From: a virus
Direction: 5' to 3' (one strand)
DNA length: 20,280 bases
Virus record (IMG/VR): IMGVR_UViG_3300008516_000223
Span: 1 to 20,280 of that record
The notes below the pieces were generated by a model. That model searched no databases and was not told the origin of the DNA. It saw only the letters and a program-made list of their open reading frames with translations. Positions 2,321-14,287 of the stretch are shown here, piece after piece (position 1 is the stretch's first letter; each line of letters starts with the position of its first letter). Made by a program: the position numbers and the translations under genes.

Positions 2321-2623
2321 ATGGCTTCAGGAGTTGACAGAGTAGTAGTAGGAGCAGTGATCGGCACAGGGTTGGCCATGAACATTGACACGATAGGCTT
2401 TCGCCCGAAACTCGTTCGTGTTGTGAACGTGACAACTCTGTCTCGCCACGAATGGTTCAAGGGCATGGCTGATGCCGCTGCTGTCAAAACAGTTACTGCA
2501 GGCGACATCACTGCAATCTCCTCGAATGGCATCACGCCAAGAGAGAAAGGATTCACGCTTGGCGCAGCGGCGGGTGGCGTGAACATCGACGGTGAGAAGT
2601 GTCACTACGAGGCCCACGAGTAG
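2321..2623 (+). CDS. Small virion-like protein, tandem paralogue 1 (100 aa)
   Basis: The SD AAAGGAGG precedes the ATG at 2321. The protein is beta-rich with a recurring skeleton: an N-terminal ASGVDRVVVG, then GFRPKLVRVVNV, EWFKGMADAAAVKT, GITPREKGFTLG and a final glutamate-rich YEAHE. The two genes immediately downstream encode proteins aligning along their whole length. Similar short proteins with a GITP...GFTLG...N motif occur in tailed-phage structural regions, so I infer a virion surface, decoration or appendage protein. Nothing resembling an enzyme active site is present. A 32-base stretch (2396-2427) is identical to the third copy but not the second, pointing to recombination within the cluster. 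The gene cluster sits between the fibre gene and the packaging genes. Confidence 0.85.
   Translation: MASGVDRVVVGAVIGTGLAMNIDTIGFRPKLVRVVNVTTLSRHEWFKGMADAAAVKTVTAGDITAISSNGITPREKGFTLGAAAGGVNIDGEKCHYEAHE
2396..2427 (+). repeat. 32-bp perfect repeat, copy in paralogue 1
   Basis: This is identical to 3045-3076 in paralogue 3. Both encode the GFRPKLVRVVN segment. Paralogue 2 encodes nearly the same peptide with many synonymous differences. Confidence 0.9.
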
Positions 2624-2638
2624 GGCAGGAGGTGCGAG

Positions 2639-2944
2639 ATGGCTTCAGGAGTTAATCGAGTTGTGACAGGTGGGGTCGTTGGGACTGGCGCAAGTTTGAA
2701 CGTTGACACCGTGGGCTTTCGACCGAGGCTGGTGAGGGTGGTCAATGTGGACAGTGGCGGTTACAGTCGTCTGGAGTGGTTTGATGGCATGGCAGATGCT
2801 GCAGCAGTCAAGACAGCGATAGCCGGTGACATTACCGTGCTGACTACTCTTGGCATTACCCCAAGGGGCGAAGGATTTACGCTCGGAGCAGATACTGATG
2901 TAAATGTGTCTGGCGAACTAGCGTATTTCGAAGCGTTTGAGTAG
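2639..2944 (+). CDS. Small virion-like protein, tandem paralogue 2 (101 aa)
   Basis: Begins at ATG 2639, 15 bases after the stop of paralogue 1, with AGGAGG upstream. It keeps the family skeleton: ASGVNRVVTG, VGFRPRLVRVVNV, RLEWFDGMADAAAVKT, GITPRGEGFTLG and VNVSGE...YFEAFE. It differs from copy 1 by a two-residue insertion after the VVNV strand (DSGG) and a one-residue shortening near the end. At nucleotide level it is clearly more diverged from copies 1 and 3 than those are from each other in the central strand. The role is inferred as for its neighbour; three non-identical copies may form a hetero-oligomer or supply antigenically different versions of a surface protein. Confidence 0.85.
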   Translation: MASGVNRVVTGGVVGTGASLNVDTVGFRPRLVRVVNVDSGGYSRLEWFDGMADAAAVKTAIAGDITVLTTLGITPRGEGFTLGADTDVNVSGELAYFEAFE

Positions 2945-2963
2945 GGGAAAGGGAGGTGTAATT

Positions 2964-3275
2964 ATGGGTTCAGGAATCAACAGGATAGTAGTCGGCTCGT
3001 TGATCTGCTCCAACCCGGCAGTAGCTGTGAACATTGACAGGGTGGGCTTTCGCCCGAAACTCGTTCGTGTTGTGAATGTTGGGGCCACGGGAAAAAGCAG
3101 ACTAGAGTGGTTCAAATCGATGGCTGATGATTCGGCGATGAAGACGATCACCAATGGAACTATTAGCTTGGTTGTCGCAGATGCAATCACACCACGTGCA
3201 AACGGTTTCACACTCGGTTTGGATACGAATGTCAACATCGCAGATGAGCGGGTGTACTGGGAGGCACACGAGTAG
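2964..3275 (+). CDS. Small virion-like protein, tandem paralogue 3 (103 aa)
   Basis: I chose the ATG at 2964, preceded by GGGAGG, because the product then starts MGSGINRIVVG in register with the other two copies. A GTG-type start at 2937 would overlap the previous gene and add nine residues without homology. The protein carries the family skeleton with some drift: VGFRPKLVRVVNV, RLEWFKSMADDSAMKT, AITPRANGFTLGLDTNVNI and VYWEAHE. Two extra residues (AV) sit before the NIDRVGF segment. It is the last gene before the long inverted repeat at 3282-3386, so it probably ends a transcription unit of small virion genes. Confidence 0.85.
   Translation: MGSGINRIVVGSLICSNPAVAVNIDRVGFRPKLVRVVNVGATGKSRLEWFKSMADDSAMKTITNGTISLVVADAITPRANGFTLGLDTNVNIADERVYWEAHE
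3045..3076 (+). repeat. 32-bp perfect repeat, copy in paralogue 3
   Basis: Partner of 2396-2427. The identity includes third codon positions, unlike the rest of these two genes, so it is better explained by recent gene conversion or unequal recombination than by protein-level selection alone. Confidence 0.9.
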
Positions 3276-3281
3276 GTGGCT

Positions 3282-3386
3282 AGGGTTAGGGCAACCAGAG
3301 GCTTGACAGTTCTCGGTCCTGTTTTCCCGGATTCTCCTTTCACGGGACTTGGTAGACCTCAAGCTTTTGGTTGTCCTACCCTTTTT
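3282..3386 (+). terminator. Long inverted repeat with T tract (24 bp stem) before the packaging genes
   Basis: The arm 3282-3306 pairs with 3359-3382: 24 base pairs counting three G-U pairs, with one bulged base at 3286. The right arm runs directly into TTTTTCTTT. The 52-base apical region (3307-3358) holds further nested complements, GGTC with GACC and TCCCG with CGGGA, so the RNA would form a long rod. It lies seven bases after the stop of paralogue 3 and ends just before the SD of the next gene. As RNA this is a strong intrinsic-terminator or processing structure. As DNA it lies upstream of terL, where phages often have pac or cos signals, so a packaging role is possible but unproven. Confidence 0.7.
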
Positions 3387-3404
3387 CTTTGAAGGAGAAT
3401 AAAC

Positions 3405-3785
3405 ATGTCAGAAGAACTCACTGGATCCCTTTCTCACACACCAGTCTATGCCTATCATCGGTATTTGTCTGGTGCTAGCGATACTCCACCTGAGACTGTG
3501 AAGAGACACGGACTGAACACAGCAGGCTTTCAGTTTGCGCACGTCCAGGTGGTGCCGGTGGATGGAGCGAATCCAAACGTGAAAGTATTGTTTTGGTCTG
3601 AGGAAGCTGCCAAGTTCGTCGAGAAGCATTCGTCTCTTTCTTTCGCAAGTAAGGGTGTGGATACTCCTTACGAGTTTGATGTCGAGTGCAATGGCAGAAC
3701 GATGTTTGTGTCTGTTCCAAGCGGTGTGACTGCTGGGCAGAAGTGTCGTGTGTACGCGGCTGGATTCAACATCATGAAGGACTAG
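3405..3785 (+). CDS. Hypothetical beta-rich protein upstream of TerL (126 aa)
   Basis: The SD GAAGGAGAA precedes the ATG at 3405. The sequence is mainly beta-strand-like, with repeated short hydrophobic strands such as FQFAHVQVVPV, VKVLFWSEEA, YEFDVECNGRTMFVSV and CRVYAAGFNI. No helix-turn-helix is visible, which argues against a small terminase subunit even though the gene occupies the usual terS position. A structural role (decoration or capsid fibre-like) fits the fold impression and the neighbouring small virion genes. The stop at 3783-3785 is eight bases from the terL start, so the two are probably co-translated. I do not recognise the family. Confidence 0.75.
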   Translation: MSEELTGSLSHTPVYAYHRYLSGASDTPPETVKRHGLNTAGFQFAHVQVVPVDGANPNVKVLFWSEEAAKFVEKHSSLSFASKGVDTPYEFDVECNGRTMFVSVPSGVTAGQKCRVYAAGFNIMKD

Positions 3786-3793
3786 GTTGTTTC

Positions 3794-5275
3794 ATGGCAG
3801 AGGCAGAGGCAGAAGTCTCATTACTTGCAAGCAGTCCTTTGGTGCTTGCTGAAGCAAAGCGAGAGGACTTGCTTGACTTGTTGCAGCACTACAAGTCGAT
3901 GGGTAATGAGCTCATACGGCGCCTTGTGCTAGAGAAAAACAGGATAGACGTGCTGGCCAAAGTGGTTCTTGGGTACGAAGTCAAGCCTTTCCACCTTTCC
4001 ATGATGCAGTTTCAATTCAAGCATGTTGATAGTTTGCAGCTTGCTTACAGGGGTTGTGGAAAGAGTACTTTGTGTACGGTCACGAAGACGATTCATTACC
4101 TACTCAAGAACCCAAACTTGAGAATTCTCATTGCGAGCAAAACAACGAAGAACGCAAAAGACTTTTTGAAAGCAATCAAGAATCATTTCGAGAATAACGA
4201 ATTGCTTGAGGAGATATTCGGAACTTACTATGATCCGCACAAGGTGAAGAAGTGGGATGAAAGTGAAATTGAAGTTGTGCCCCGTACTCTGATATCTATA
4301 GAGCCTTCGGTTCTTTGCATTGGTGTTGATGGCACAATTGTTTCTAAACACTTTGACATCTTACTCAACGATGACTTGATTGACGAGGAGAATTCCCGTA
4401 CCGAGCACATGAGAAGTAAGACAAAGGTTTGGTACTACAAAACCTTGGAACCTTGTCTTGAGCCACCAGACAATGAAGTAGAGCACCGAGGAGAGCACCA
4501 CAGACTTGGAACGAGATACCACTACGAGGATTTGTACGGCCATCTCATGAAGAGCGAGCTCAAGCATTCACATCAAGTCATTGAAGCACACGACAAGAAG
4601 GGGAGAGTTCCTTGGCCAGAAAAACACTCCCATAAGTGGTTTATGACAAAGAAAAAGAAATCCGGTGTTATCATCTTCAACGCTCAGTACCTCTGTAATA
4701 CCGAGGCCATGAAGGGACAAGTCTTCCACTACGACGACTGTCAAGTTATAGAAGACAGGTTGATACCTTCAGACCTTCGTATTTTCATGGGAGTGGATCT
4801 TGCCACCAGTGAACAAGATCAGAAGGGCAACGCGCAGTTTGCGATAGTTGTGATAGGTGTGTGTGGCGAGGGAAACATTTATGTGCTCAGCCGATACCTG
4901 AGACATATTGGATTCCCGAAACAAATCCAAAAGGGGATTAACTACTACGAGAAATACGATCCAATCAGGGCAGGAGTTGAAGCGAACGCATATCAGCTAG
5001 TGTTCTACCAGCAGATGAAGGAGTTGGACAAAACTTACAGGTTTGTCCCTATCTATACAGATAAGGACAAGATGACTCGCGCTCTGAAGCTAACTCCTCT
5101 TTTCGAGGGAAAGAAAGTTTTCTTCAGGAAAGACATGGAAGATTTGATTGACCAGTTTGTGCTTTTTCCTGGATACGAACTCAGAGACGGATTGGACGCT
5201 TTTGATCTGGCTTACAGAGCCAGCAAGATCAAGAAAAGAAAGAAACCTCCACGCGAAGAGCCTGGGTTGCTATAG
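3794..5275 (+). CDS. terL: Terminase large subunit (493 aa)
   Basis: This is the ATPase-nuclease motor that pumps DNA into the prohead through the portal and cuts it. The N-terminal ATPase has a Walker A segment RGCGKST at residues 86-92 and a Walker B segment FDILLNDD ending in two aspartates at 193-194. The C-terminal RNase H-like nuclease shows the expected acidic residues: D335 in MGVDLAT, E396 in GVEAN, and D465/D468 in DGLDAFD. The length of 493 aa is normal. I chose the ATG at 3794 (product MAEAEAEV...). The frame is open further upstream, but there it overlaps the 126-aa gene out of frame. SD is weak, so coupling to the preceding gene is likely. No small terminase gene is recognisable beside it. 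Confidence 0.95.
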   Translation: MAEAEAEVSLLASSPLVLAEAKREDLLDLLQHYKSMGNELIRRLVLEKNRIDVLAKVVLGYEVKPFHLSMMQFQFKHVDSLQLAYRGCGKSTLCTVTKTIHYLLKNPNLRILIASKTTKNAKDFLKAIKNHFENNELLEEIFGTYYDPHKVKKWDESEIEVVPRTLISIEPSVLCIGVDGTIVSKHFDILLNDDLIDEENSRTEHMRSKTKVWYYKTLEPCLEPPDNEVEHRGEHHRLGTRYHYEDLYGHLMKSELKHSHQVIEAHDKKGRVPWPEKHSHKWFMTKKKKSGVIIFNAQYLCNTEAMKGQVFHYDDCQVIEDRLIPSDLRIFMGVDLATSEQDQKGNAQFAIVVIGVCGEGNIYVLSRYLRHIGFPKQIQKGINYYEKYDPIRAGVEANAYQLVFYQQMKELDKTYRFVPIYTDKDKMTRALKLTPLFEGKKVFFRKDMEDLIDQFVLFPGYELRDGLDAFDLAYRASKIKKRKKPPREEPGLL

Positions 5276-5283
5276 GAGCTGAC

Positions 5284-7017
5284 ATGGCAGAAGAAAAAGA
5301 CTTCAACGAACGCAGTGCGAGCAAGAATCAAGCGAAGGTTCGGGCGTTGATACTGCCGATCAAGAAAGCGCAGCAAGCAGAGCCAGGGAAGTCGAAGGCA
5401 CTCCCGGAGGATCCTCTTGAGGCGATGGTAGAGACGGGTGAGATTATCGAGCCACCTTTTGACTTACTCTCGCTTTCGATGTTGAGCGAACACAACTCTG
5501 AGTTAGGGCCGGCCGTCCAGGCCATGGAGATCAACATAGAGGGATTCGGGCAGAGATTAGTTTCTCGGTTGGATGTTGATAAGGTAAAAGAAGACAAAGA
5601 TCTACTCAAGAAAGTGCAAGAAGAAAAAGTCAGGTTGGATAACTTCTTCGCCTACGCAGCTCTTGATGTTTCGTTTACGAAGTTCAGAAGGATGTTGCGG
5701 GTTGATCTTGAGTTGACAGGTAATGCCTACTTTGAAGTTGTCAGGAACATGAAAGGAGAGATCCAGGGGTTCAATCATGTCCCTTCGTACCAGATTCGAC
5801 TTGGTAGGCAGCAGAAAGATGCTGTCGAAGTGGATATGTCGGTTTACCAGTTGCAAGATAAGGGTGTTGTTGCCATTGAGAAGATGAGGGTGTGGAAGAG
5901 ATTCAGGACTTTTGTTCAAGCCAAGTATCTTTACCGCAGGGATCTATCTTACGTGGGTACGTTCTTGAAGAGATACTTCAAGGAGTTTGGGGATCCGAGA
6001 GTCTATGACAACGAGACAGGCGAGATTGTCAAGGACGCAGACAAGCTTGCTAAGCTTCCATCAGACAAAAGAGCAAACGAGATGGTGCATCTCAAGATTT
6101 ACAGTCCTAGATCTCCCTACGGCTTACCGCGATTTGTCGGGGCCATGCTTTCGATATATGGCGACAGAGCATCAGAAGAGATCAATTACATCACGATTAT
6201 GAATAACAATGTTCCCTCGATGGTAGTGTTGGTTTCGAATGGGCAGATTACTCAGGGTTCGATAGATAGAATCAAGGACTTTACAGAGAGTTTGATTCAA
6301 GGTTCGGACAACTATAGCAAGTTCTTGCTGCTTGAAGCAGAGCCTGCAGAAGTTGAAGGGGAGGAACCTGGTCAAGTCAAGTTTGAGATAAAACCACTTA
6401 CCCAAGTGCAGCACAAGGACGCTTTGTTTCAGGAGTATTCAAAGAACAATCAGGATAGAGTGAGAAGGCAATTCAGATTACCGCCACTTCTGGTGGGCCG
6501 CGCTGATGACTATGTCCGTGCCACTGTGGAGGCTGCTCGTCGTGTGGCGGACGAGCAGATATTCGCACCAGAGCGAGATGAGTTTGATAACCTGATCAAC
6601 CGGGTGCTTTTTCCTCACATGGATGTGCTGTATCACAAGTTCAAGAGCAACTCTCCTAACACGACTGACAACACGGAGCTTGTCAAAATACTTGCCGGCG
6701 CAGAGAAGACAGGCGGCATGACACCTCGAATAGCGCGGGTGATGCTTGAAGACATACTTGGGATCGAGCTTCCGCCATTCCCAGAAGATTTCCCTGCTGA
6801 CAGACCGTTTTCGGAGACAATGGCAGAGGCAGTAAAAAACATGGCCTCACCCGTAGAACCGGGACAGCAGGTTACCGCCTTGAAAATGATCGACCAGCTT
6901 ACCGAGTCTGACATACCTCTCTTCGAACAGACTGAAGATGAAATGGTTGAGAAACTTCTCAATGTCAGAAATAAGCTTGAGCAGAAGTGGCGTGAAGATG
7001 TGGAGGCAGAGGAGTAG
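5284..7017 (+). CDS. Portal protein, PBSX/P2-like family (577 aa)
   Basis: The portal forms the dodecameric ring at the capsid vertex through which DNA enters and leaves. The protein shows hallmarks of the PBSX/P2 gpQ-like portal family. An N-terminal segment reads DLLSLSMLSEHNSELGPAV, the central part has HLKIYSPRSPYGLPRFVGA, and the crown/stem region has FRLPPLLVGRADDYVRATVE followed by APERDEFDNLINRVLFP. The C-terminal 100 residues are helical and acidic. AGGAG lies four bases before the ATG at 5284, only nine bases after the terL stop. The order terL, portal, minor head protein is the classical packaging order. The length is within the family range, perhaps slightly long at both ends. Confidence 0.93.
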   Translation: MAEEKDFNERSASKNQAKVRALILPIKKAQQAEPGKSKALPEDPLEAMVETGEIIEPPFDLLSLSMLSEHNSELGPAVQAMEINIEGFGQRLVSRLDVDKVKEDKDLLKKVQEEKVRLDNFFAYAALDVSFTKFRRMLRVDLELTGNAYFEVVRNMKGEIQGFNHVPSYQIRLGRQQKDAVEVDMSVYQLQDKGVVAIEKMRVWKRFRTFVQAKYLYRRDLSYVGTFLKRYFKEFGDPRVYDNETGEIVKDADKLAKLPSDKRANEMVHLKIYSPRSPYGLPRFVGAMLSIYGDRASEEINYITIMNNNVPSMVVLVSNGQITQGSIDRIKDFTESLIQGSDNYSKFLLLEAEPAEVEGEEPGQVKFEIKPLTQVQHKDALFQEYSKNNQDRVRRQFRLPPLLVGRADDYVRATVEAARRVADEQIFAPERDEFDNLINRVLFPHMDVLYHKFKSNSPNTTDNTELVKILAGAEKTGGMTPRIARVMLEDILGIELPPFPEDFPADRPFSETMAEAVKNMASPVEPGQQVTALKMIDQLTESDIPLFEQTEDEMVEKLLNVRNKLEQKWREDVEAEE

Positions 7018-8078: not shown

Positions 8079-11000
8079 ATGCCCAAGGTTAGACGTGCTG
8101 CTAAGAAGCCTGAAGAGACATCGGTTCCGGTTGTCAAGACGATATTTTCTGAAAGTCTTGACGATGGGAAGTTATATCCCTTGCGAGGTTTGCCAGGTGG
8201 GAGTGGAATAATCAGCGAAGAGGACAAGGGCAAAGTTGTTTTTGTCGAGATAGGCAGATATGAAAAACAAATTTTGCGTCCTGATTCTGATCCTGGGGAG
8301 ATGACAACTGGGGAGCTCAGGGAAGCTCACAGCCAGCTACACGAGATGTTTGAGCAAGGTGAAGTAAAAGGATTCTCAACTGAGGATATTGTGAATCTTC
8401 ATGCTTTGGTTGTGGATGAGTTGATGGACAGAGGAAAGACTCATCCTGCTCCACCTGACAACGGGCTGGACGATGTGTCAGAAGAGTTCGAGAGACATGA
8501 GAAGGTAGAGAAGAAGTATGCTCGTATTCAACACTCAGGGGTGAAGAGGGGTGAGAAGATTCAGCTTGCAGATGTCTTGCGGCACTTCGAGACATTCAAG
8601 TTGAGGAAGCCTTACATCTATCTGGTGGGAGGACTTGCTAACAACGGATCGACAGAGGGTGACATAGACATTTTGATCCAAGATACTGTGGAATTGCCTG
8701 AAGAACTCAAACATGCAATTCACTTTCGTTTGGGTCGGGCTCTTCCTCCTGAGTTGGCCGAGCGGTTGGAGTTTCATTTCAATGAGTTTCATACCCCTTT
8801 TACAAATCATGTTGAGTTGTATGACTTGACTTTTGAGAGAGTAAATCCTGAGAACGAAATCAAGTTGATGCGAGATGAGGAGACCGAGAAACGAGTCAAG
8901 CCACTTTGGTCTTCTTCAGGTGGTAAGACTAGACTTGCTCCTAAGCTTGTCGAATTGTTGCCAGAGCACAAGGTCTACGTGGAGCCGTTTGCTGGTTGTG
9001 GTGCTGTATGTCTTGCAAAGGAGATCGTGGACACCGTAGTGCTCAGTGATTCGGATCAGGAGATTGTAGACGCATTCAGGTTAGTCAAGAAGCTGACGAA
9101 ATCTCAGTTGGAGGAGTTGAAGAGGAAGAACTGGATTGGCATTCCAGAACGCTATTACAAGTTGAAGAAGGAATCACCAAAGGGAGATGTGGAGCGTCTC
9201 TATAGATTTTTGTATACTTCTAGCTTCGCATACGGTTCGGATCGCAAGGGAGGGTTTGGTTATTACAATAAGGGTCGCGATGCGAGTACCCGACTGGCTA
9301 GATTTGAATCTGTGCGTAGTAGGTTGCAGGGCGTGAAGATAGAATCAGGTGATTATCAGAAGGTGGTTGAGAAGTACGATAGCAAGGAGACCCTCTTCTA
9401 TTTTGATCCTCCCTACGTTGGTTACGACGCTACTCTAGGAGAAGGAAAGTTTGACGAAGAGCGATTTCTGAAAGTTCTTTCTGGTTTGAAGGGCAAGTTC
9501 TTGCTCACTTATGGAACGCGAGGTTCTTTGCCAAGTAAACTCAGGAAGGCAGGATTTCAGATCAAAAAGCTGAATACCCCACGGCATGGACTTGGCTTGT
9601 TTGCGAACCATGCAGAGCAAGAGAATCGACAGCTCGCTACCCTGATCGTTACCAATTACATCTTGGCAAAGAAGGATGACGCTGAAGAGTTGTTGGTGGA
9701 TATCTCTGAGAAGGAGATTGGAGAGATAGCAAAACAAGAACCACGAACAGCTCCATCCAAATTCATAGAGCAAGCAGAGAGAGCCGAGAAGAACGACAAG
9801 CTTACTCTTGGTGAGTTCTTCTACCAACCAAAGCCGACCAGACCTGCTTTTCCAGAGGAGCTTCAGACCGTCGAGAGATTGCTTTCTCTTTTCAAAGAGA
9901 GGCTAGAGTGGTTTCCAACTTTCGTGCAGAAGAAGCTTGATGGAGCTCGACATCAGATCCACGTTGATGGAGACAAGGTAAAGATTATCTCCGAGGACGG
10001 CGAAGACAACACAACTCGACTTCCTGAGACTGTCAAGGAGCTCCAAGCACTCAAGGTTGACAAGTTGGTCTTCGATGCCGAGATCGAACAGTGGAAAGGC
10101 GGGCAGCACCTTCCTCGCGAAGCTGTTGCTGGCTATCTACACTCGAAAGACGAACCAGACGACTCTGACATTGTAGTGAACGTGTTTGACGTGCTTTATC
10201 ACGGAGAAGATGGCGACATCCACAAGTTACCTGTCAGGGAGAGACTTGAGAAGTTGAAAGAGCTTGGCATCAAGCAAAGCACAATGAGCGCTCCCAATCT
10301 GGAGTACAGATTGAACGCGGTGCCGGGTGTTGAGGTGAACGACTTGGCAGAGTTAGAACGCTCAGTCAGAAAGATCAGAGAGCTTCCGGGCTCGGAGGGC
10401 ATAGTTGCAAAGCGGTCAGATGCAGACTATCCACTCAAGCTTACGACTCCTGATAGTTGGATCAAATTTCACAATGCAACTACTATCCGAGGGATTGTAT
10501 ACGGAAGTGAAAAGACGAAGGGTGGAGTTTGGGTCTACCAGTACGGCATGCTTCCTGGAAAGGAGAAGTCGCAGAAGACCATCGAAGTGAAGGGCAAGAC
10601 AATTGTTCCCGTAGGAGACACGTTCGCAACCAAGAGGGACTTTGAAGACGGTGATGGGATACTGATCGAAGGCGAGACCGTCAACATAGAGAGAAGTCCC
10701 AAGGGATTGAGAATCAGTGTTTGGGTGCCTCGTGTGATCGGACCTTGGGAAGGCAAGGCAGACACGGTTGACACAGCAGCAACAAGAGCGAAGAAGAACC
10801 TTGTTCTGCAAGAGAAGGTGATCGACGAAGAAGGCAACATTGAATACCTGCCAACCAAAGCGATTGAGAAGCAAGCTGATCCTTACATGGAAATTCCATC
10901 GGAAGAAAAAGGACCATACGATTACACCTGTCAGTTTCATTGGCGAGGGAAATCACTACATACGGATTTTCGAATTGCATTTCGACCTGGAAAGTTACTG

Positions 11001-12824
11001 ATTGGTTGGACCTTGAACAATCAGATAGCGGGAGCCGTCAAGGATCCTGTTGTGACTCTCAAGCAAGCGCGTTCTCTGGCTAAGAACCGAATGGATGAGA
11101 TTAGTAAGATCAATTTTAATACGGGAAAATGGGCAGAGCGTCCCAAGGCAGGCACAACCAAGCTGGTCAGAACAAGCATACTTTCAGAACGCAAAGCGGT
11201 CGAACCTTACGCTTGGTTGAATGTGGAAGGCAAGACTAAAGAGCCAGAAGAAGGCAAACCTCCTCCAGTTGGCGGGACCAAACGGTATCCCGGTGTGTTT
11301 CAAATCGTTGACAAGGGAAAGGTTGAATTTCTTGCTCAAAAGCCGTGGTTCCACGAATATGCAGTTCGTGGCCGTGCCATGAACTACCGGTTGATCTTTC
11401 GTCAGCTCAAGTTGCCTGCGAGGAAAGCGGCGTATTCAAGGAAGCTCTGCATGTACGATGGCTGCATGATGGATCCTGAAGTTGACGTGCTGTGGGCTGA
11501 CGGTAGAGGCAGGGCTTGGTTTTGCAAAGAGCATCTCAAGAGATGGAAGCAAGGATTTGTAGATAGGGGAAAGGAAGACTGGCTTGATATAGTGGACGAG
11601 AAGAAAGTCACCACCGGTGAAGTACCAGAGAAGTGGGCTGACATTCACAAGTCGATAGGCGACCTTGATGTGGAGGTGACCGTCACAAAAGAGATCGTGC
11701 TCCCTCCTTCTGAAGAGCAAGCTATGCCTGGCCCTGCTTGGCTTGCCATGCAGCCAGATGACTTAACTCCCTACGTGCTTGACAGAGAAGCCGTCAAGAA
11801 GGGTTGGATGCCTCCTGTGGGTGTCTCTGCTCTTCCTAAAGCAGTCAGAGATCAGGTCCCCAGTGAGTGGCAGTATTGGAAGAAGAGAAGCGCCTCAGAG
11901 GCCCGCAAAACAAGAGATGGGTTGGTTGAGGCAGTAAAGGCCAAAGAAGTGAGGTTGGACTACTCCGCTCCATACAAGAAGAGTGTATCGAAAGCGTCTA
12001 TGCTTGACGCTGATTTCGTCTTGCAAGAGCAGACTTGGAAAGGACCGGTTCAGATTCGGGTGGGCCCTTCGAGAACGCTTTGGTGGTTGAGGTTGGATGT
12101 GGGTAGACCAGAGCTGGTTGCTATTGAGATGTATCTGAATCCTCTTGACAATGCGAAGTTGGCTGTTAAGCCAGGGGCAGATCCTCATAAAGACTCGATG
12201 GAGTTTCAGGGAGCAATCAAGCCAGGTCACTATCTGAACCCGACAAAGGAGACTCCTAGCAACATTGAGATTTTGGATTCTGGCAAGGCTTCTGTGCTTG
12301 CATACAGCAAAGACTTAATCAAGGTCGAGCTGAAAGGCAAGAGGCTCAAGGGATTGTACCAAGCGAAGAGAAGTGATGGGGACTGGTTGTGGTCTCCTAT
12401 TGAGCCAGGGCCAGTGGTGAAGGAGGGCGATATGCGAGCGCAGATCAGGCTAGAGATGCCGATTGCCAAGGTGGACAAAGAAAAGCAACTTGTGACTGGG
12501 ATTGTGCTTGAGCCAAATGAAGTAGACGCGCAGGGAGACATCATAGACGCCGGTGCAATAGAAAGAGCTGCTCATAGGTTTCTTTCCAGATACAACAGTG
12601 AGACGAGGTTGGGTTTGCTTCACAAGATATTTGGTGAGAATGGTGTGGATCTTGTGGAGTGTTGGGTCTCTCCGCTTAATTTCAAACTGGGAGGCCAAGA
12701 TGTTAAGAAAGCCACTTGGCTAATGACGGTTCATGTGACAGACAATATTCTCTGGAAGAAGGTTAAGTCTGGAGAAATAACCGGTTTTTCGATTGGCGGG
12801 ATGGCGACTGTAGTTAGTGGGTGA
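8079..12824 (+). CDS. Giant fusion: nucleotidyltransferase, adenine methylase, DNA ligase, two LigD-PE-like domains, XkdF-like protease (1581 aa)
   Basis: The start ATG at 8079 has AAGGA six bases upstream. Domains by residue: 80-135, helical segment; 175-275, nucleotidyltransferase fold with GGLANNGS then GDIDILI (D195, D197); 278-525, D12-class adenine methylase with GGKTRLAP (281), FAGCGAV (304-310) and DPPY (443-446); 605-798, ATP-dependent ligase with KLDGAR (K619 nucleotidyl acceptor), FDAEI, EGIVAK (773-778) and WIK (794-796); 799-890, OB fold; 940-1110, LigD phosphoesterase-like with H954, H961, D963 and R965; 1124-1152, C-x4-C...C-x2-H zinc site; 1313-1445, second phosphoesterase-like domain lacking H-x-D-x-R; 1452-1581, XkdF-like prohead protease with likely H1515 and S1571. 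The fused parts could process, seal and methylate DNA in or near the capsid; that is inference. An internal start at 12432 may release the protease alone. Stand-alone XkdF-type proteases are far smaller. Confidence 0.9.
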   Translation: MPKVRRAAKKPEETSVPVVKTIFSESLDDGKLYPLRGLPGGSGIISEEDKGKVVFVEIGRYEKQILRPDSDPGEMTTGELREAHSQLHEMFEQGEVKGFSTEDIVNLHALVVDELMDRGKTHPAPPDNGLDDVSEEFERHEKVEKKYARIQHSGVKRGEKIQLADVLRHFETFKLRKPYIYLVGGLANNGSTEGDIDILIQDTVELPEELKHAIHFRLGRALPPELAERLEFHFNEFHTPFTNHVELYDLTFERVNPENEIKLMRDEETEKRVKPLWSSSGGKTRLAPKLVELLPEHKVYVEPFAGCGAVCLAKEIVDTVVLSDSDQEIVDAFRLVKKLTKSQLEELKRKNWIGIPERYYKLKKESPKGDVERLYRFLYTSSFAYGSDRKGGFGYYNKGRDASTRLARFESVRSRLQGVKIESGDYQKVVEKYDSKETLFYFDPPYVGYDATLGEGKFDEERFLKVLSGLKGKFLLTYGTRGSLPSKLRKAGFQIKKLNTPRHGLGLFANHAEQENRQLATLIVTNYILAKKDDAEELLVDISEKEIGEIAKQEPRTAPSKFIEQAERAEKNDKLTLGEFFYQPKPTRPAFPEELQTVERLLSLFKERLEWFPTFVQKKLDGARHQIHVDGDKVKIISEDGEDNTTRLPETVKELQALKVDKLVFDAEIEQWKGGQHLPREAVAGYLHSKDEPDDSDIVVNVFDVLYHGEDGDIHKLPVRERLEKLKELGIKQSTMSAPNLEYRLNAVPGVEVNDLAELERSVRKIRELPGSEGIVAKRSDADYPLKLTTPDSWIKFHNATTIRGIVYGSEKTKGGVWVYQYGMLPGKEKSQKTIEVKGKTIVPVGDTFATKRDFEDGDGILIEGETVNIERSPKGLRISVWVPRVIGPWEGKADTVDTAATRAKKNLVLQEKVIDEEGNIEYLPTKAIEKQADPYMEIPSEEKGPYDYTCQFHWRGKSLHTDFRIAFRPGKLLIGWTLNNQIAGAVKDPVVTLKQARSLAKNRMDEISKINFNTGKWAERPKAGTTKLVRTSILSERKAVEPYAWLNVEGKTKEPEEGKPPPVGGTKRYPGVFQIVDKGKVEFLAQKPWFHEYAVRGRAMNYRLIFRQLKLPARKAAYSRKLCMYDGCMMDPEVDVLWADGRGRAWFCKEHLKRWKQGFVDRGKEDWLDIVDEKKVTTGEVPEKWADIHKSIGDLDVEVTVTKEIVLPPSEEQAMPGPAWLAMQPDDLTPYVLDREAVKKGWMPPVGVSALPKAVRDQVPSEWQYWKKRSASEARKTRDGLVEAVKAKEVRLDYSAPYKKSVSKASMLDADFVLQEQTWKGPVQIRVGPSRTLWWLRLDVGRPELVAIEMYLNPLDNAKLAVKPGADPHKDSMEFQGAIKPGHYLNPTKETPSNIEILDSGKASVLAYSKDLIKVELKGKRLKGLYQAKRSDGDWLWSPIEPGPVVKEGDMRAQIRLEMPIAKVDKEKQLVTGIVLEPNEVDAQGDIIDAGAIERAAHRFLSRYNSETRLGLLHKIFGENGVDLVECWVSPLNFKLGGQDVKKATWLMTVHVTDNILWKKVKSGEITGFSIGGMATVVSG
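12420..12434 (+). promoter_or_regulatory. Internal in-frame SD and ATG at the protease domain boundary
   Basis: AAGGAGG at 12420-12426 lies five bases before an in-frame ATG at 12432 inside the giant gene. Translation from here would give a 130-aa protein starting MRAQIRLEMPIAKVD, which is the XkdF-like protease domain and nothing else. Sequence and spacing are as good as for any start in the window. Whether ribosomes use it is not shown by sequence alone. Confidence 0.6.
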
Positions 12825-13067: not shown

Positions 13068-13100
13068 GAAGCCTCAAGCATTTGCTTGGGGCTTTTTGTC
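13068..13100 (+). terminator. Rho-independent terminator after the YezD-like gene
   Basis: The stem AGCCTCAAGC (13070-13079) pairs with GCTTGGGGCT (13084-13093) over ten base pairs with one G-U pair. The loop is ATTT and TTTTGT follows directly. One or two further pairs can form at the base. It lies 30 bases after the stop of the YezD-like gene and ends 17 bases before the next start codon. It splits the head genes into an upstream enzyme/packaging unit and a downstream scaffold/capsid unit. Confidence 0.85.
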
Positions 13101-13117
13101 GTTTCAGGGAGCAGGAG

Positions 13118-14287
13118 ATGCCAGACATAGATGAGGACAAACCGAGAAGGATGTTAGACGTTGACGTGAACGAGGTTTCTCTTGTTGATCGAGCAGCGAA
13201 CCTCAGAAGATTTCTAGTTATCAAACGACTGACGAAGGAGGAGACAATGCCAGCTTTCGAGATGGACGAGAATGTTCCCAAGGAACTCGAAGGATTCTAC
13301 ACGGAAATGCAGGAAGTCGAAAAGGCTCTGCCTGACGACGTTTTTGATCCGCTCGAGGATTCCGAGATCGAGGAGATCCAGAAGGCATTGCCAGAAGACT
13401 TGGCAAAGGCCCTCAAGGAAACCATTGCGTGGATGAAGCGCATGGGCAGGATGAAAGGTGCCCCGAGTGGAGCAATCAGCCGAGTGCTGACTTTCCTCGG
13501 GAAGGTAGCCGGCGGAAGGTATCCAGAACCTGCGGCCAAGACAGAGAAAGATGTGAAGAAGGGCTTATCTGCCGACATCGCAACTTCGGTTCGTCGGGTT
13601 GTGACGTTCTTGGAAAAGGCAATCGAAGAATATCCGAACCTGAAGCCGGTCGAGAAGTCGGAAGACAGCAAGGTGGATGAGTTCGAGATCGAGAAAGCTC
13701 TGCCTCCTGATTTGGCAGCGGCCATCCGTATGGTGGTTTCTTTCTTGGGCAAAGTGCTCGGGGGCAAGTACCCAGAGCCTGCTGCCAAAGACACGGCAGC
13801 CAAGATGGTATCAGCCAAGAAATCAGAGGATGATCCCGACGCGGAAATTCCAGCCATGCAAGTCATGGCAGATGGAACCGTGATCGTGAGTGGTCAGCCT
13901 GTGATGAAGGGAAAGAAGTTCACCCAGGGCAGGATAACCGCTCTCAAGGATGCGAGCTTGCAGCTCCTGAAGTTGATGGCTGAAGTAGGAGACGAAGCCA
14001 CCATGAAAGCGTTCGAGGAGGCCATGAAGGGATTCTCGACCTACACACAAGGAGTGCATGCAATCGCCCCGACTCAGAAGGCAGCAGATGCAGAACCCGA
14101 GAAGGACGAAGAGAAAGAGGAACTCAAGAAGCAGCTTGCCGAGGTGACGAAGCAACTCACCGAGGTGGCCAAGCGCCTTGAGACCGTGGAGAATACGAGG
14201 TCTGTCTCGACATCCGTTGATGGTCAGGGCGGCACTGACAAGGAGAGAGTCGAGAAGGGTTTCTGGGGTGGTATTCTAGGAAACTGA
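13118..14287 (+). CDS. Scaffold-like head assembly protein with XkdF-type SLVDRAAN motif (389 aa)
   Basis: I chose the ATG at 13118, with AGGGAG six bases upstream; earlier in-frame starts fall inside the terminator. Residues 8-30 read LDVDVNEVSLVDRAANLRRF, the motif that follows the protease in XkdF-like phage proteins. The middle contains KALPxD-type elements at residues 69, 89, 148 and 193, and three copies of an RVVxFLxK...YPxxxP unit near 122, 160 and 204. A predicted coiled coil follows (EELKKQLAEVTKQLTEVAKR). The tail ends RVEKGFWGGILGN, shared with the zinc-ribbon protein. Charged, helical, coiled-coil proteins between protease and capsid genes are typically scaffolds, so it probably guides capsid assembly and is removed later. 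A second SD-ATG at 13247 may yield a 346-aa form. Confidence 0.8.
   Translation: MPDIDEDKPRRMLDVDVNEVSLVDRAANLRRFLVIKRLTKEETMPAFEMDENVPKELEGFYTEMQEVEKALPDDVFDPLEDSEIEEIQKALPEDLAKALKETIAWMKRMGRMKGAPSGAISRVLTFLGKVAGGRYPEPAAKTEKDVKKGLSADIATSVRRVVTFLEKAIEEYPNLKPVEKSEDSKVDEFEIEKALPPDLAAAIRMVVSFLGKVLGGKYPEPAAKDTAAKMVSAKKSEDDPDAEIPAMQVMADGTVIVSGQPVMKGKKFTQGRITALKDASLQLLKLMAEVGDEATMKAFEEAMKGFSTYTQGVHAIAPTQKAADAEPEKDEEKEELKKQLAEVTKQLTEVAKRLETVENTRSVSTSVDGQGGTDKERVEKGFWGGILGN
13235..13249 (+). promoter_or_regulatory. Internal in-frame SD and ATG in the scaffold-like gene
   Basis: AAGGAGG at 13235-13241 lies five bases before an in-frame ATG at 13247. The shorter product would start MPAFEMDENVP and lack the SLVDRAAN segment. 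The SD sequence and the five-base spacing are the same as for the internal site at 12420-12434. The purine run could instead merely encode TKEE, so use is uncertain. Confidence 0.5.

Follow-up and report, generated by a model that had tools for sequence, protein, structure and literature searches.

A position-conserved intercistronic RNA hairpin downstream of a virion-type gene in uncultivated phages

The window analyzed here, meaning the whole stretch of 20,280 bases, is an IMG/VR virus record (IMGVR_UViG_3300008516_000223). On its + strand, three tandem copies of a gene for a protein of about 100 amino acids, B100 (2321-2623, 2639-2944, and 2964-3275), are followed by a gap of 129 nt and then by A126 (3405-3785), which encodes a 126-aa protein. 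The gene for the terminase large subunit, terL (3794-5275; phrog_38, E 1e-75), comes next on the same strand, followed by the portal gene (starting at 5284) and the head genes. Both B100 and A126 are confidently predicted (pLDDT 92-93) to be small beta-sandwiches. Structure comparison likens B100, a beta-rich protein of virion type, to phage tail-fiber and DUF7483 domains. The best PDB comparisons for A126 are the prophage proteins XepA (Z 9.6) and YomS (Z 9.2), and its Foldseek matches are weak. Could A126 be a small terminase? The predicted beta-sandwich fold, nearest to XepA and YomS, argues against this, and B100, too, is predicted to be unlike one. Across the window (2321-3275) and its relatives, B100 and A126 each occur in one to three tandem copies, which suggests rapid duplication of virion surface genes. 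A terL search for prophage relatives in bacterial genomes found none.

Farther along the window, a single frame of 1,581 aa (8079-12824) has a phage head maturation protease of the XkdF type at its end, fused to a D12 DNA adenine methyltransferase and an ATP-dependent DNA ligase domain. Such a fusion of enzyme domains ahead of a capsid protease is unusual. In addition, the otherwise unlike products of 1927-2226 and 13082-14287 carry near-identical end peptides, VEKGFWNGVL and VEKGFWGGILGN. Since the product of 13082-14287 is a scaffold-like part matching a maturation protease family, the common peptide may be a capsid-targeting tag.

The gap between the last B100 copy and A126 is largely occupied by a hairpin. 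Its long stem is formed by a 5' arm at 3282-3306 and a 3' arm at 3359-3382: the 5' arm pairs along its whole length except for the bulged T3287 (3282-3286 and 3288-3306 with 3359-3382), for 24 pairs in all, three of them G-U. The intervening 3307-3358 folds into inner stems topped by a C/U-rich apical loop (TTTCCCGGATTCTCCTTTC). Immediately 3' of the stem lies a terminator-like U tract (TTTTTCTTT; TTTTT-C-TTT at 3382-3390), and a Shine-Dalgarno-like AAGGAG for A126 (3392-3397) follows 10 nt past the stem. The sequence-only reading had described this stem, its three G-U pairs, single bulge, nested stems, and T tract, and the RNA fold reproduces them to the base; its placement of the element upstream of the packaging genes is also correct, with one gene, A126, intervening before terL. 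The folding calculation that it proposed gives a minimum free energy of -52.0 kcal/mol for the + strand RNA of 3282-3386 (z = -6.59), and none of 200 dinucleotide shuffles (mean, -29.5 kcal/mol) is as stable. Extending the fold to the flanks of the whole gap gives z = -4.8, folding the hairpin as DNA gives z = -4.7, and the opposite-strand RNA is weaker (-41.7 kcal/mol; z = -3.0). When all + strand segments of 105 nt in the 20,280 bases are ranked by fold stability for their composition, the hairpin comes first. A gap-free repeat finder misses it, since the stem contains a bulge and G-T pairs, and a terminator scan with a loop limit of 8 cannot report it because its loop is larger. Elsewhere, at 13068-13095, near the start of the scaffold-like reading frame, the window also holds a short hairpin resembling an ordinary terminator, GAAGCCTCAAGC-ATTT-GCTTGGGGCTTT, with a T run.

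Is the hairpin peculiar to this phage? About 165 related loci were gathered by searches with A126, B100, and TerL, and in profile searches about 139 of 171 loci have the genes arranged as B100-A126-TerL. Among 90 nonredundant loci, the gene following B100 was located in 83, with a gap of at least 60 nt in 67 and a shorter one in 16. The 67 longer gaps, together with a 140-nt region from each of the 7 loci where the next gene was not located, make up 74 test regions, and most of these contain a long hairpin downstream of the B100 stop codon. It starts a median of 12 nt past that stop and ends a median of 22 nt ahead of the next start codon. Most of the 16 short gaps are too small to hold it, and the hairpin is therefore dispensable in some lineages. 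The stem score after the B100 stop has a median of 38, versus 23 for 1,849 control segments drawn from these loci (P 1e-29), although these controls are mostly coding and the contrast may partly reflect intergenic versus coding sequence. In 64% of loci, a fixed segment of 110 nt after the stop ranks among the top 5% for that locus. Size varies, with many relatives having stems of only 13 to 18 bp and loops of 4 to 6 nt.

The sequences of the stems are unrelated among distant relatives. The sequence-only reading had looked beforehand to conservation of the arms in relatives, and what is kept there is pairing and position, not arm sequence. Between the window and its relative L004, 13 of 15 changed pairs can still form, 3 of them through a double change. 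Over all pairs of relatives, 59% of double changes remain pairable, only moderately above the 41% in slid controls, because sequence alignment breaks down at such divergence; these compensatory counts are not the main evidence.

Wobble pairs offer a comparison free of the coding-versus-intergenic weakness noted above. In the + strand RNA, G pairs with U but A does not pair with C. At the DNA level the two mismatches should be equally frequent, and for the opposite transcript the preference should be inverted. The stem finder used was strand symmetric and gave no preference to G-T over A-C mismatches, yet the hairpins contain 143 of the former and 56 of the latter; the control stems have 2,353 and 2,515 (P 6e-11). 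Shared ancestry means that the loci are not independent in such counts; taken by locus, the split is 47 favoring G-U against 11 favoring A-C. Because G-U is tolerated far more than A-C, the structure is kept as + strand RNA rather than as DNA, and it is on this RNA form that selection acts. The RNA function suggested by the sequence-only reading, a terminator, RNase III site, or stabilizer, is thus supported, with position and pairing persisting while the stems differ.

To which gene does the hairpin belong? Four relatives (L019, L022, L088, and L110) carry a gene for S-adenosylmethionine (AdoMet) decarboxylase at the same place, between the hairpin and A126, and in all four the hairpin still adjoins B100. 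Where B100 is duplicated, the copies lie merely 14 to 29 nt apart, so that only the last one bears the hairpin. By its placement across these loci, the hairpin goes with the upstream gene B100 and not with terL.

In a TerL tree, the window and L004 group together inside a clade of 24 loci (support 90/91), and the hairpins of this clade have two further properties. The first is a U tail, defined as at least 4 U's in 8 positions near the stem end, which is present in 18 of the 24 clade loci and in 15 of 43 others (P 0.002); conversely, 28 of the 43 hairpins outside the clade have no U tract. The mirror-image A tract 5' of the stem occurs in only 6 of the 24. The second is a run of 6 to 8 C's, found in 13 of the 24 members where 0.16 would be expected from the remaining loci (P 9e-21). 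All 13 runs sit in the apical loop, on stems that are unrelated in sequence. In the window's own subbranch the loop is rich in C and U but lacks a run of this kind. On the TerL tree, the C run requires several gains or losses.

What might such a hairpin do? Most likely it is a 3'-end element between two cistrons that terminates, processes, or stabilizes the message before it. As its best explanation, we give about an even chance to the following account. The hairpin would close the B100 message on a late + strand transcript. In the window and its clade it would have two roles, stopping transcription as a leaky intrinsic terminator and shielding the 3' end of the B100 mRNA. Two hallmarks of an intrinsic terminator, a stable hairpin on the transcribed strand and a U tract immediately after the stem, are both present in the window. 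Polymerase would often halt at the U tract, and the fraction reading through would provide the reduced expression of A126, terL, and portal. Read-through is the expected source because the hairpin lies only about 22 nt from the start codon, which leaves no space for a second promoter. The hairpin would in this way separate the B100 mRNA from that of A126-terL-portal; termination, its leakiness, and the resulting ratio of expression are what we infer from the sequence. Termination cannot, of course, be the function common to all of these hairpins, because most of those outside the clade have no U tract. Where the U tail is absent, processing or stabilization would be the likelier mode, and the two modes can coexist.

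Processing or stabilization without true termination could also be the whole explanation, a possible but rather doubtful reading. RNase III or another endonuclease would cut in or beside the stem, leaving the upstream fragment with a protective 3' hairpin and giving the downstream fragment a 5' end just ahead of the A126 ribosome site, so that one transcript would yield unequal amounts of two proteins. The window's 24-pair stem with its one bulge amounts to about two turns of double-stranded RNA, enough for RNase III, and long stems without a U tract occur in many relatives. There is also a precedent in the cip-cel operon, where intercistronic stem-loops are documented to set stoichiometry through cleavage and stabilization (PMC10311766). 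Not all relatives would suit RNase III, however: the many stems of 13 to 18 bp with loops of 4 to 6 nt are short for this enzyme. Processing also leaves the U tract of the window's clade unexplained.

Neither termination nor processing explains the conserved C-rich loop, and conservation of a C6-8 loop is not expected of a plain terminator. One way to accommodate it, which we consider unlikely, is that a phage RNA hairpin kept for its shape ends a virion gene and presents its C6-8 loop to a specific, putative phage or host partner that would switch transcription or mRNA fate between virion-surface and packaging genes. Slightly different, and quite unlikely, is the proposal that the apical loop is itself the working part, binding G-rich RNA or a protein, e.g., an antitermination or regulatory partner, so that the element would act as a regulated switch or give rise to a small RNA. 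The recurrence of the C run at the apex of unrelated stems does suggest a putative partner, and the C-rich loop of Caulobacter GsrN binds a G-tract in katG mRNA (PMC5869019). On the other hand, no conserved or consistent G6+ partner was found within the relatives' loci examined, and the window's loop has no C6 run. Nor were further C-loop hairpins found elsewhere in the five relatives' genome records examined; in the phage record L017 (about 95 kb), no hairpin but the one after B100 has a loop of this kind. Another candidate, a pseudoknot in which the loop would pair with the Shine-Dalgarno sequence and sequester the ribosome site, was rejected: the window's loop matches AAGGAGAAT well, but over 55 loci, own pairs average -7.7 kcal/mol versus -7.3 kcal/mol for swapped ones (permutation P 0.096).

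The remaining suggestion of the sequence-only reading, a pac or cos packaging site, falls, and this or any other DNA-level element such as a cruciform is very improbable: the hairpin does lie about 0.4 kb upstream of terL and its inverted repeat is strong in DNA as well, but the strand-specific excess of G-T over A-C weighs most heavily against either, the arm sequences vary whereas a protein-binding DNA site would need conservation, contig ends show no significant pile-up at the site (three contigs start within about 100 nt upstream of A126), A126 is predicted to be no small terminase, and the hairpin follows B100, not terL, when a gene is inserted.

A hairpin between two phage genes is usually written off as accidental or as nothing more than a terminator. 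A comparison of about 70 uncultivated phages, deeply diverged from one another, shows one that has been kept as + strand RNA in the same location despite complete turnover of its sequence; its C-rich loop recurs within one clade. The element offers a testable case of how tailed phages might obtain virion and packaging proteins in different amounts from a single late transcript, and the C-rich loop provides a motif with which to seek an RNA-binding partner.

How does the hairpin compare with known elements? No Rfam family scores above its gathering cutoff in the window and 15 relatives, the only match, to mir-879, being at chance level (22.7 bits versus a cutoff of 90), and a literature search found no description of this hairpin element. 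Intrinsic (Rho-independent) terminators are known between late phage genes, e.g., T7 Tphi after the capsid gene. The window's hairpin resembles these in having a GC-rich hairpin and a U tract right after a structural gene and in lying ahead of codirectional genes. It differs in that its compound stem is much longer and its apical loop is large and C/U-rich, and in that many relatives lack the U tract while one clade conserves a loop motif. The cip-cel stem-loops, described as sites of selective RNA processing and stabilization, likewise occupy gaps within an operon and can set the ratio of flanking mRNAs. They belong to a bacterial operon rather than a phage, their abstract describes neither a C-rich loop nor a U tract, and cleavage at the phage hairpin is putative. 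With GsrN, the hairpin shares a C-rich single-stranded loop, conserved more strongly than the variable remainder; unlike GsrN, the phage loop tops an intercistronic hairpin within an operon and is known here from sequence, with no G-tract target found in the loci examined. The kind of element, an intercistronic terminator or processing hairpin, is thus known, and what appears to be new is that uncultivated phages have a version that is conserved in position and, in one clade, carries a C-rich loop.
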